This document shows positions 3,570-54,959 of a stretch of DNA of 56,666 nt, piece after piece. A program made the position numbers and the translations under genes. Numbering within the stretch: position 1 is the first letter of the stretch; the number at the start of each line of letters is the position of its first letter. The stretch lies in NCBI GenBank assembly GCA_020050685.1, contig JAGVKG010000030.1, forward strand, positions 1 to 56,666, in the 5' to 3' direction. The notes under the pieces are model-generated. The model did no database searches, was not told where the DNA came from, and worked only from the letters and a program-made list of their open reading frames with translations. The DNA comes from Candidatus Obscuribacterales bacterium. GTDB lineage: Bacteria; Cyanobacteriota; Vampirovibrionia; Obscuribacterales; Obscuribacteraceae.

Positions 3570-4193
3570 TTAGCGTGAGTAGTGTTCAACGATAAGAGCT
3601 TCTTTGATGCTTTGATCAAGATCTTCTCTTACCGGCAGGCTAGAAATACTGGCTGAGAGCGCATCCATATCGCGACTCATCCAAGGTGGGCAAGTTGCGG
3701 TTGGATTTGCTTCTACGATGGCTTTGATCAGCTTCTTGCTGTTATCACGCACTGATACCACTTGTCCCAGCTTCAATTGGTAGGAACCAACTGTTACCTT
3801 CTTGCCGTCCACGTTGATGTGTCCGTGCAGAATAAGCTGACGAGCTTGAGCTCTTGATGGAGCCAAACCGGCGCGGTAGACGATATTGTCCAAGCGCGAC
3901 TCGAGCAATTGCAAAAGTCTCAAACCAGTTGGAACTTTCTTTTGACGGGCGGCTTTTTCAAAGTAGCTTGAGAATTGGCCTTCGAGCATGCCGAAGGTGC
4001 GACGAAGTTTTTGCTTCTCGCGCAATTGCACGGCAAATTCCGACTGCTTCTTGCGGTCTTGTCCGTGTTGACCACTGCCATAGCGTCTGCGCTCAATGGC
4101 ACACTTGGTAGTGAAACAACGCGAGCCTTTCAAGAAAAGCTTTTCGCCTTCGTTGCGGCAGAGTTTGCAAACTGAATCCGTATATCTGGCCAA
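3570..4193 (-). CDS. rpsD: 30S ribosomal protein S4, zinc-binding form
   Basis: S4 of the small subunit, 207 residues. Four cysteines (9, 12, 26, 31) form the CX2C...CX4C zinc site of the cysteine-containing S4 type. The S4 RNA-binding domain is clear in [20 protein letters not shown] and [11 protein letters not shown]. In many bacteria S4 represses its own operon; nothing in the sequence here proves that. The gene sits between rpsK and rpoA, as in many Firmicutes and Proteobacteria. Confidence 0.98.
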
Positions 4194-52252: not shown

Positions 52253-53077
52253 CTAGATCTTACGAGTGCCAACAAATAAGCCCAAGTCTTGCAGTTTCTC
52301 GGTCAGTTCGAGAAATTTCACAACTGCGTCTTGAGCGTCAGAACCGGAATTTGGCATAACGGCTTTCTCAAGCAAGTCTTTGAAAGATGATTTATGCATT
52401 TGAGCCTGGGCAATAACCTGATAAGCAAGGTGACTGAGCTCGAGAAATTTACAAAAATGTGTTTCGGGATGCCTGTAAATTGCAACTTTGGTTTTGTCCT
52501 CATCTGCCTGGTAGACAAACAATTCATCAGCTTCCAAATGATCAACGATTTTCGGGATCGGATAAGCATATTGGCGAATAACTAGAGTTTGGTTCACAAC
52601 CGGTCCATACTTGGCAAAAGCCTCGGCAGAATCTAGTGTGCATGCATCTGTACAAACTATTTGAATATCCTTTTCCATTAGCTCAAGTTCGAGCCACTCA
52701 TAATCGGCAAGCTCAGCCAGAAAAGGGAATTGTTCAAGCCATGTGCCACCGTGCTTGGTGACATATTGGGGAAAACGGCTGGCGATCATATTTAAGCGCC
52801 AATGGTTAGGTGGATATTTTTGCAAGTAATCATCGACAACTTCATCCCACTTCTCGCCAATTAGTTTGGCGCAACCAGGATAAATGGAATCAATTGCATC
52901 GTGATGCCCATAACCAATCAGCTCGGAATAAAGTTCAATTGCTTCGTTATCCAATGCGTGAGCCTCGGACTTAGACTTGCTCTTCTTGCCGGAGAAAAAT
53001 TGTTGACGGGCTTTGCCGTCAACCACGATTGTGCAAAATGACTTTTCAATCTCAGATAGAGACGGCTTGGACATCAC
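52253..53077 (-). CDS. DUF2063 (BufC/HvfC-like) partner of the MNIO enzyme
   Basis: A 274-residue protein of the DUF2063 family, the usual partner of DUF692 enzymes (BufC, HvfC). The N-terminal half has the helical DUF2063 core (IELYSELIGYGHHDAIDSIY and HWRLNMIASRFPQYV). The C-terminal half probably holds the peptide-recognition domain that binds the precursor leader in characterised systems. It overlaps the MNIO gene by 26 nt, so translation is coupled. The gene order precursor-MNIO-DUF2063 matches bufferin-type operons; no DoxX-type fourth gene follows. Confidence 0.85.
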   Translation of the reverse strand: MMSKPSLSEIEKSFCTIVVDGKARQQFFSGKKSKSKSEAHALDNEAIELYSELIGYGHHDAIDSIYPGCAKLIGEKWDEVVDDYLQKYPPNHWRLNMIASRFPQYVTKHGGTWLEQFPFLAELADYEWLELELMEKDIQIVCTDACTLDSAEAFAKYGPVVNQTLVIRQYAYPIPKIVDHLEADELFVYQADEDKTKVAIYRHPETHFCKFLELSHLAYQVIAQAQMHKSSFKDLLEKAVMPNSGSDAQDAVVKFLELTEKLQDLGLFVGTRKI

Positions 53078-53969
53078 TTTTCGCCTTCTTGCTTGTACCG
53101 CACTTCTTCAAGTCCATTTTTGAACCAGGATTTGAATCGCAGATATTGCGTATTTTTTCCAGCTCAACAATAATTTCGTCAAAGTTGGGGAAATTCTGAT
53201 CACGCTCAAGCATGACACCCTTTACGTCAACCCGGCCGATTGTATATTCGAGCAAGTCGTAAACTGCTTGCACCACCGGAGCGCCATGCGTATCAATAAT
53301 GGTTTTTTTGGATTTCTTGTGTCCGGCAATGTGAATTTGCACGACGCGCTCAAGCGGGATTTGATCAACAAACCTCTCGGGATCAAAACCATGATTGACC
53401 GAGTTCACATAAACGTTGTTTACGTCCAGAAGCAAACCACAATCCGCTTTCTCCAAAATCTCGGAAATAAACTGCCATTCATTCATTTCCGCGCCAGGCA
53501 GACTTGTATAGTAGGAAATGTTTTCCAAAAGAAATGGGCGTTCAATATAGTCTTGAACAGTCTTGATGCGTTTAACCACATGCTCAATTGCTTCTTTGGA
53601 AAATGGCAGCGGCAAAAGATCTTGCACATACACGCCATTGAAAGATGCAAAACACAAGTGATCAGATGCCCAGGCACAATTAGCTTGATCAAGAGTTTTT
53701 TTCAGGGCTTTCAAATAGTCATTGTTTAAGTCATCAGTAGATCCAATGGATAAACAAAGACCATGTGAAATAAGAGGAAACGCCTCGGCGGCTCTTTCGA
53801 GCAATGCCTTAGCGTTTCCCCCGACTTCCATATAATTTTCCGGAGCAAACTCCAGAAAATCGATCTTGTCTTTTGCCTCGAAAGTTTCGTCAGCGATTTC
53901 TCGTCTCAAGCCAAACCCGATGCCGAGATCAGGCAATTTGTTCTTCAAAGTGAGAAATTGGTTTGACAA
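53052..53969 (-). CDS. MNIO (DUF692) family peptide-modifying enzyme
   Basis: A TIM-barrel multinuclear non-haem iron oxidase, 305 residues. Metal-ligand blocks are all present: SHGLCLSIGS, ASDHLCF, LENISYY, LLLDVNNVYVNS, HIAGHKK, DTHGAPV and ERDQNFP. Characterised relatives oxidise cysteines in RiPP precursors (MbnB, BufB, HvfB). It follows the precursor gene by 31 nt with no terminator between. About 30 extra residues rich in Lys end the protein. Chemistry on this precursor is inferred from the family. Confidence 0.92.
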   Translation of the reverse strand: MSNQFLTLKNKLPDLGIGFGLRREIADETFEAKDKIDFLEFAPENYMEVGGNAKALLERAAEAFPLISHGLCLSIGSTDDLNNDYLKALKKTLDQANCAWASDHLCFASFNGVYVQDLLPLPFSKEAIEHVVKRIKTVQDYIERPFLLENISYYTSLPGAEMNEWQFISEILEKADCGLLLDVNNVYVNSVNHGFDPERFVDQIPLERVVQIHIAGHKKSKKTIIDTHGAPVVQAVYDLLEYTIGRVDVKGVMLERDQNFPNFDEIIVELEKIRNICDSNPGSKMDLKKCGTSKKAKSDVQAVSI

Positions 53970-54000
53970 AGTCTTTCAAGCAACTCGTTCTAGTTCGGAA

Positions 54001-54315
54001 TTACTTGCTTTCGCCGCCCTTGCAGGAGCCTTCTTTACCCTTGCAAGAACCTTCCTTGCCTTTGCAAGAACCTTCACTACCTTTGTCTGCCTTCTTTTCT
54101 TTTTTCTCTTTCTTTTCTTTCTTTGCTTTCTTTTCCTTCTTTTCCTTCTTTGGAGCTTCGGTCTTTTCGCCGCTAGCTGCATCAGCTTGGGCAATCTTTG
54201 AAGGTGATTGCTTTTCAGTTACGGTATTATCAGCTGCATTAACAGCACCAGCGGTGCAGAAACCAAATGTAGCAACAAGCGCGGCGGCGAGTTGAACCTT
54301 ATTCAATGTGCTCAT
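54001..54315 (-). CDS. Secreted cysteine-repeat precursor peptide (bufferin/HvfA-like)
   Basis: A 104-residue peptide with a perfect AAGGAG site 8 nt before the ATG. A Sec signal peptide (cleavage after AVNA at about 27) is followed by a polar linker, a Lys/Glu-rich stretch (55-77) and three tandem 7-residue repeats of EGSCKGK with cysteines at 84, 91 and 98. Secreted precursors with EGxCG-type repeats, an MNIO and a DUF2063 protein define the bufferin and Hvf families, whose modified cysteines bind copper in studied cases. Here the order is SCKG, not KCG. Copper binding is inference. Confidence 0.82.
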   Translation of the reverse strand: MSTLNKVQLAAALVATFGFCTAGAVNAADNTVTEKQSPSKIAQADAASGEKTEAPKKEKKEKKAKKEKKEKKEKKADKGSEGSCKGKEGSCKGKEGSCKGGESK

Positions 54316-54566: not shown

Positions 54567-54601
54567 AAAAAAAATGAGAGCCCCAGAAACCTGGAGCTCT
54601 C
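54567..54601 (-). terminator. Terminator of the histone H1-like gene
   Basis: GAGAGCTCCAG and CTGGGGCTCTC form an 11-bp stem with a 4-nt loop, followed on the minus strand by ATTTTTTTT. A textbook intrinsic terminator, isolating the H1-like gene from the RiPP-type operon. The rest of 54316-54653 holds no gene that I can see. Confidence 0.9.
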
Positions 54602-54653
54602 AAATTGAACCGATTAACCGAACTAAGTTAGTTGACCAATAAGTCAACCAACC

Positions 54654-54959
54654 TTATTTAGCTCTTTTCTTTGCTACTTTACGCTTGGCAGCCCGTCTTG
54701 GAGCAGCCTTAGGAGCAGCCTTCTTGGCTACTTTGCGCTTTGGAGCGGCCTTTTTAGGAGCTGGCTTTTTAGCAGCTACTTTCTTTTTGGCCTTTCTCTT
54801 TGGAGCAGCTTTTTTTACTGTCTTCTTAGCAGCAGCCTTTTTTGGAGCTGCTTTTTTTACTGCTTTCTTTTTGGTTGCTCTTTTTTTAGCAGCCGGAGCA
54901 GCATTGATTCCAGCAAGCGACAAGGTACCTGCCACTACTGGTTTTTTCTTTGTGACCAT
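54654..54959 (-). CDS. Histone H1-like Lys/Ala-rich DNA-binding protein
   Basis: A 101-residue protein. After about 25 residues (with TLSLAGINAAP) it is made of KKAAPKK, KRKAKKK and similar repeats, about two thirds Lys, Arg and Ala. This is the composition of bacterial histone H1-like proteins (for example Hc1/Hc2 of chlamydiae) and of HU C-terminal tails. It probably binds DNA or RNA non-specifically by charge. AAGGAGG lies 7 nt before the ATG, and a strong terminator follows, so it seems highly expressed. Confidence 0.8.
   Translation of the reverse strand: MVTKKKPVVAGTLSLAGINAAPAAKKRATKKKAVKKAAPKKAAAKKTVKKAAPKRKAKKKVAAKKPAPKKAAPKRKVAKKAAPKAAPRRAAKRKVAKKRAK

Follow-up and report, generated by a model that had tools for sequence, protein, structure and literature searches.

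Few RiPPs are as numerous as the captophorins, and how their enzymes choose the Cys residues of a substrate is only starting to be understood, from proteobacterial examples. A short operon of a Candidatus Obscuribacterales bacterium, located in the 56,666-nucleotide stretch of DNA analysed here (the window), raises the question whether a pathway of this type is present in a separate lineage and which motif its enzyme reads. The operon combines a hybrid motif (an EGKCG-like Glu-Gly with a Buf2-like Cys-Lys) with a hybrid enzyme pocket, and thus the published rule of substrate choice becomes directly testable by single-residue swaps.

Organization and distribution of the operon

Three co-directional genes on the minus strand (54315–52253) encode a peptide, an MNIO (DUF692) and a DUF2063 protein, in agreement with the positions given in a first-pass annotation made from the sequence. 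This is the canonical order precursor–MNIO–partner, and it is kept in synteny among the relatives. The features are:

54575–54602, minus strand: terminator-like hairpin (12 bp stem, then a T run) separating the histone-like gene upstream from the operon
54001–54315, minus strand: ORF of the precursor peptide, 104 aa, with Sec signal peptide, Lys/Glu-rich spacer and three EGSCKG units
54235–54315, minus strand: signal peptide and presumed leader, MSTLNKVQLAAALVATFGFCTAGAVNA, from its sequence and near-invariance across genera
54076–54234, minus strand: spacer of 53 residues with 18 Lys and 8 Glu
54016–54075, minus strand: core EGSCKGK-EGSCKGK-EGSCKG with three presumed modification sites
53052–53969, minus strand: MNIO (DUF692, PF05114), 305 aa, TTG start, beginning 31 nt after the precursor stop
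53901–53906, minus strand: Arg22-Arg23 of the MNIO, equivalent to FonB Arg15-Arg16, by alignment to 3bww and relatives
53196–53201, minus strand: Asp257-Gln258 of the MNIO, by the same alignment
52253–53077, minus strand: DUF2063 and RRE-type partner (PME-type 1/HvfC-like), 274 aa, GTG start, PF09836

The previously noted overlap of 26 nt between the partner and MNIO genes applies to the GTG start; it shortens to 23 nt with the ATG at 53074, an equally possible start codon. The hairpin is weak evidence, because about 2.7 such sites are expected by chance in the scanned region, and a scan for sigma-70 promoters yielded no excess over shuffled sequences. Upstream of the operon, 54654–54959 (minus strand) encodes a Lys/Ala-rich histone H1-like protein of 101 residues, which scores under the curated cut-offs. 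Antisense ORFs across the repeats (53963–54295, plus strand) were rejected as shadows of the codon pattern.

The host had been suspected to be non-proteobacterial. Indeed, the named genomes that resemble it best are those of Candidatus Obscuribacterales, and the phylum is Candidatus Melainabacteria (NCBI taxonomy), non-photosynthetic relatives of cyanobacteria. An MNIO is present in 46 of 60 related genomes. An EGSCKG-type peptide adjoins a member of the MNIO clade of the window in 28 loci (27 relatives plus the window itself), either upstream of the enzyme or, in a single locus, divergently beside it. Tandem EGSCKG was found in 23 of 29 family genomes with the MNIO clade versus none of seven without it (Fisher p = 2e-4). 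As to the six apparent exceptions, degenerate repeat forms adjoin the enzyme in G012, G030 and G034, the locus is interrupted by a contig end in G028 and G031, and G013 has a different peptide. In nearly all relatives whose upstream sequence is intact, the survey of gene neighbourhoods places the precursor next to the enzyme. Adenosine deaminase-like genes upstream in 16 loci and TlyA downstream in 14 loci indicate one syntenic locus that is inherited within the family.

With a strict pattern, tandem EGSCKG was found in none of a sample of 385 other Cyanobacteriota genomes; since no other family member was drawn, this absence applies to the rest of the phylum and to the strict pattern. A plasmid search with the repeat, in which the repeats were largely masked, gave no matches. 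The operon represents a putative metal-peptide pathway that is conserved and apparently inherited vertically in the sister group of cyanobacteria that lacks photosynthesis, and our literature search found no earlier description of such a pathway in that group. Locus L034 (SBAT01000129.1) is titled Chloroflexi and carries the same enzyme as the Obscuribacteraceae contig G031:C204, so that the record seems to be wrongly assigned.

The precursor peptide

The peptide had been described as a secreted protein of 104 residues with a Lys/Glu-rich spacer in front of three exact EGSCKGK repeats. The ORF and the spacer were confirmed, and the signal peptide was recognised by eye and by its conservation. 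However, only two EGSCKGK units are exact, the third being EGSCKGG, whereas the hexamer EGSCKG does occur exactly three times, at residues 81, 88 and 95 with a 7-residue period. The third hexamer is followed by GESK. A triple repeat of this kind is not due to chance, as none of 200,000 shuffles of the precursor protein contained a Cys-containing 6-mer three times. Across the relatives, 75 neighbouring EGSCKGK units of identical sequence were compared, and 67 of them differ in their DNA, by silent changes only, which argues for selection on the peptide sequence rather than on the DNA.

The family comprises 43–46 distinct precursor relatives with 2 to 14 Cys-Lys sites each, the highest numbers being found in stand-alone relatives. 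Lys follows the core Cys at position +1 in 233 of 240 cases, and position –3 is acidic at 222 of 226 SCK sites. Short low-complexity matches of precursors to Pfam and NCBIfam models (e.g. TigB in a stand-alone relative) were rejected as composition matches.

Cleavage of the signal is expected after residue 27, as judged by eye. While the spacers diverge, the N-termini are near-invariant across genera (K-x-QLAAALVA-x-x-G). Ordinary signal peptides are not known to be so strongly conserved. In oxazolin and bufferin, according to published work, the signal peptide doubles as leader. On the strength of this precedent and of the near-invariance, the signal peptide of the precursor probably serves as the leader recognised by the modifying enzymes.

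The DUF2063 partner

The assignment of the partner to DUF2063 was substantiated by a match to PF09836 (E = 2.8e-10). On the HvfC model the protein reaches 83 bits, below the cut-off of 142. An AlphaFold2 model, calculated with 22 relatives, has a pLDDT of 87.6, and a fold search with it returned as the two best PDB matches TglI in both cases (E = 2e-7); TglI is the partner of the MNIO TglH. A lasso-peptide RRE with its leader follows as fourth match, which is weak (E = 0.32, probability 0.96).

The MNIO and its substrate pocket

The enzyme matches the DUF692 model PF05114 (E = 8.8e-103) as well as PDB entry 3bww (E = 3.2e-63), an MNIO from Histophilus somni whose gene has been placed in a RiPP locus that also encodes a DUF2063 partner (PMC13097082). 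All ligand blocks had been reported to be present, and the presumed metal-site residues (E40, H69, D103, H104, E149, D182, H213, H217, D226, H228, E255 and D257) are in fact invariant in 28 of 28 loci.

Published work on FonB provides the framework for the substrate pocket. Arg15-Arg16 adjoin the Glu that opens the EGKCG motif, and Phe250, located beside the catalytic Asp249, contacts the residues flanking the Cys (PMC13097082). Enzymes of the Buf2 type have an Asp at the Phe250 site and have lost the second Arg, and FonBC does not act on substrates in which the Cys is followed by a charged residue (PMC13097082). In our enzyme, Asp257 corresponds to the catalytic base Asp249 and Gln258 to the site of FonB Phe250 and BufB2 Asp251. 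The combination Arg-Arg/Asp/Gln is present in 27 of the 28 EGSCKG loci and Arg-Lys/Asp/Gln in the remaining one. Three EGKCG-like relatives of the same class have Arg-Arg/Phe, and in two of these loci a peptide of the CGEGQCG or CGEETCG type precedes the enzyme. Buf2-like paralogs from Obscuribacteraceae lack the second Arg and have Ala, Asp, Asn or Ser at the Gln258 site; among Buf2 plasmid references, this site is Asp in four of five and Gly in one, and the second Arg is missing in four of five.

It is attractive to assume that the hybrid motif, Glu-Gly plus Cys-Lys, fits the hybrid pocket, Arg-Arg plus Gln, a correspondence drawn from essentially a single clade. A reading of the Lys by Gln258 alone became less likely, because Gln258 is also found in Obscuribacteraceae paralogs without EGSCKG neighbours (L040, L042, L045, L046, L048, L049, L055, L058, L059 and L062). 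Gln is thus a trait of the lineage, and we regard it as permissive, not as a residue proven to read the Lys. Elsewhere in the class, KCG-type peptides accompany Ser, Leu, Thr or Gly at the specificity site, and the published Phe rule is therefore not universal outside Pseudomonadota.

In Holophagaceae (Geothrix; L035–L039, at about 3600–3960), SCGKGSCG peptides are found with an enzyme carrying Arg-Arg/Asn. These operons are possibly another sub-type.

Relation to known captophorins

An MNIO with the metal-site residues, a DUF2063 partner directly downstream and a Cys-containing precursor with Sec signal directly upstream are the traits of a captophorin locus, and judged by this gene content the operon falls into that broad class (bufferin/oxazolin) and probably works like a captophorin-type system. 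The assignment to a known branch is a different matter. On NCBIfam models, the MNIO of the window scores 318 bits for HvfB (cut-off 360) and 304 bits for BufB (cut-off 310). The MNIOs of four relatives score 302–316 bits on these two models, one of them slightly above the BufB cut-off, and scores on the ApyH, ChrH and MbnB models are far below those for HvfB and BufB. In the enzyme tree, calculated by a quick method and midpoint-rooted, this MNIO groups within an Obscuribacterales clade (43 rows, SH-aLRT 88) apart from the clade of Buf2 and DUF2282 enzymes (SH-aLRT 100). None of the NCBIfam metallophore models recognises the precursor, whereas controls of the EGKCG and Buf2 types are matched by theirs. 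Of the models proposed earlier for a check, those for DUF692 and DUF2063 matched and those for HvfA and DUF2282 did not. Since the precursor is outside all models and the pocket is Arg-Arg/Gln, the system is not a member of Buf1, Buf2 or the EGKCG/oxazolin branch.

Oxazolin (HvfABCX, Haemophilus) and fontiphorin (FonABC), which are among the known systems most similar to ours, belong to the Buf_EGKCG/oxazolin captophorin branch (PMC13097082, PMC13419390, PMC12452194). Common to these systems and ours are a signal-peptide precursor, short Cys repeats opening with Glu-Gly, MNIO and DUF2063 genes in the same order and the Arg pair. In contrast, the repeat is EGSCKG(K) with a 7-residue period here and EGKCG there, Gln instead of Phe stands beside the catalytic Asp, and there is no DoxX gene; an EGKCG control from L071 is recognised by the HvfA model (NF050137), while our precursor is matched by no HvfA model. 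The absence of a DoxX-type fourth gene had been regarded as a peculiarity. It is real, the only DoxX match of the genome being on another contig, but it is not unusual, because the core genes occur in various combinations (PMC12452194). Bulbicupramide (MmrABC, Microbulbifer) is likewise a stand-alone A-B-C operon with repeated Cys cassettes (PMC12538549), without DoxX or protease; unlike the present operon, it is proteobacterial and has EGKCG cassettes.

With Buf2 (BufA2B2C2, Buf_6/12Cys; the Cys-Lys group) the operon shares a Cys followed by Lys-Gly, the Sec signal and the pair of MNIO and DUF2063 genes. It differs in that a 6-Cys or 12-Cys domain is missing (the BufA2 model gives 104 bits on a Buf2 control and nothing here), the second Arg is kept, Gln replaces Asp and the enzyme falls outside the Buf2 and DUF2282 clade. 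Similarity to the Buf1 bufferins (DUF2282) extends to the operon logic and the enzyme class; however, the Pfam scan gave no DUF2282 match, a folded 4-Cys domain is missing and the enzyme belongs to another clade.

The SCKG motif, pointed out earlier as a deviation from KCG, is real and has its counterpart in a changed residue of the enzyme pocket. Its novelty has to be qualified: the EGxCK hybrid is new, but Cys-Lys itself is already known from Buf2. The proposal of an undescribed variant stands, inasmuch as EGSCKG repeat and pocket define a sub-type for which we found no description in the literature. A full-text search for EGSCK retrieved no paper; the motifs in Table S2 of PMC13097082, which lay outside this search, may include it. 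Of the papers covered, only one contained both DUF692 and Melainabacteria, and it named the latter just once. Hundreds of unclassified signal-peptide precursors adjoin MNIOs of a large cluster (PMC12452194), and the EGSCKG family may be among them.

Proposed mechanism and alternatives

We consider it probable that the three genes form a captophorin-type RiPP operon for a substrate sub-type of its own, in which the Cys residues of the EGSCKG units are modified and the peptide buffers copper. The genes with their order and linkage, their conservation, synteny and co-occurrence, the residue pattern and the fold of the partner come directly from the sequence analysis, and from there we infer the modification, its chemistry, the leader role, export, the metal and the function. 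The precursor would carry a Sec signal peptide doubling as the leader. The DUF2063/RRE protein would bind this leader and present the C-terminal repeats to the MNIO, which, using iron and O2, would catalyse a four-electron oxidation of each EGSCKG Cys, most likely to a 5-thiooxazole. Arg22-Arg23 probably hold the Glu of the motif as in the EGKCG enzymes, and Gln in place of Phe at position 258 may free the pocket for the Lys after the Cys. Subsequently, the modified peptide would be exported and its signal cleaved, and with its multiple sites it could bind and buffer excess copper outside the cytoplasm.

The assumed role is the part most exposed to an alternative. Three haem-copper oxidases are encoded in the host genome, and copper and, by implication, O2 are probably in use. 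These oxidases need copper, so that the peptide of a Cys-modifying MNIO pathway might scavenge it for them, or might act on zinc, gold, mercury or oxidative stress. Among the neighbouring genes of the loci, no copper regulator, copper gene or DoxX gene is linked to the operon. Published authors also suggest functions beyond copper excess and doubt protection in one EGKCG system. On the other hand, the characterised products of DUF2063-partnered MNIOs generally bind copper (PMC13097082), and the neighbourhood of the operon has no conserved transporter or receptor that could take up a metal-peptide complex. We regard such another role as a minor but serious alternative, about as probable as one chance in a handful. 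Neither the oxidases nor the missing linked copper genes tell protection against copper apart from a role with other metals.

The notion that the host needs the peptide for want of copper efflux was set aside. The whole window genome has no match to the HMA heavy-metal domain at E = 1e-3 (present in 39 of 50 family genomes), but a P1B-ATPase with CPC motif is present (L147).

Less probable, yet worth considering, is that the MNIO installs a group other than 5-thiooxazole on EGSCKG, e.g. by chemistry involving the neighbouring Ser or Lys. Several reactions are known across the MNIO superfamily, Ser precedes and Lys follows the Cys, and the pocket residue is unlike that of all characterised captophorin enzymes. 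Nevertheless, all characterised pairs of MNIO and DUF2063 (PME-type 1) give 5-thiooxazoles (PMC13097082), and the enzyme is borderline (300–318 bits) on HvfB and BufB and far lower on ApyH, ChrH and MbnB. We therefore consider this possibility rather unlikely.

Stand-alone EGSCKG genes away from any MNIO and a second Cys peptide upstream in at least nine relatives might suggest that the EGSCKG peptide is an unmodified, basic, Cys-bearing secreted bystander and that the enzyme modifies another peptide, e.g. of the DSxCGxGxCG type, but this is very improbable given the missing tandem motif in family genomes without the MNIO clade, the conserved order and synteny, and a window genome that has no second peptide at the operon and no related one elsewhere by pattern search.

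Further peptides and MNIO paralogs in the relatives

The second small secreted peptide lies upstream of the EGSCKG gene and has the motif [DE]SxCGxGxCGxDxKGAxAA. Examples are found in L007 (352–657), L012 (304–624), L013 (553–918), L018 (511–801), L021 (633–941), L026 (525–905) and L028 (574–930); others exist. The leader of some of these peptides resembles that of the EGSCKG peptide, and in G014 and G032 a single matched MNIO stands against the two peptides. A distinct leader, MQDKxKxxLAAA, is found in the stand-alone EGSCKG-type precursors L125, L126, L127, L106 and L109, which contain 7–14 repeats and in three cases are located on contigs without a matched MNIO. We tentatively suggest, as a speculation that has more against it than for it, that the Obscuribacterales MNIOs with Arg-Arg and Gln are a third substrate-reading class. 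Enzymes of this class would accept Cys-Lys (EGSCKG) as well as Cys-Gly (DSxCGxGxCG) sites, so that one enzyme would mature two different metal peptides whose leaders are of the same type, and would also serve stand-alone precursors with up to 14 repeats.

In L050 (3603–3926), a single precursor has both a CGKGSCG-type stretch and SCK sites; the MNIO beside it is of the Arg-Arg/Asp type. Finally, long repeat proteins are encoded upstream of other MNIO paralogs in L062 (2817–3941), L055 (3091–3951) and L058 (3451–3990). They have a Cys every 13–20 residues, e.g. PSDLVKCVAMLPHEELLPPELAKCSPRFPHQ, and no obvious signal peptide, and are possibly unusual protein substrates of these MNIOs. The MNIO frames of the three loci, with 634–839 aa, suggest a fusion to another domain.
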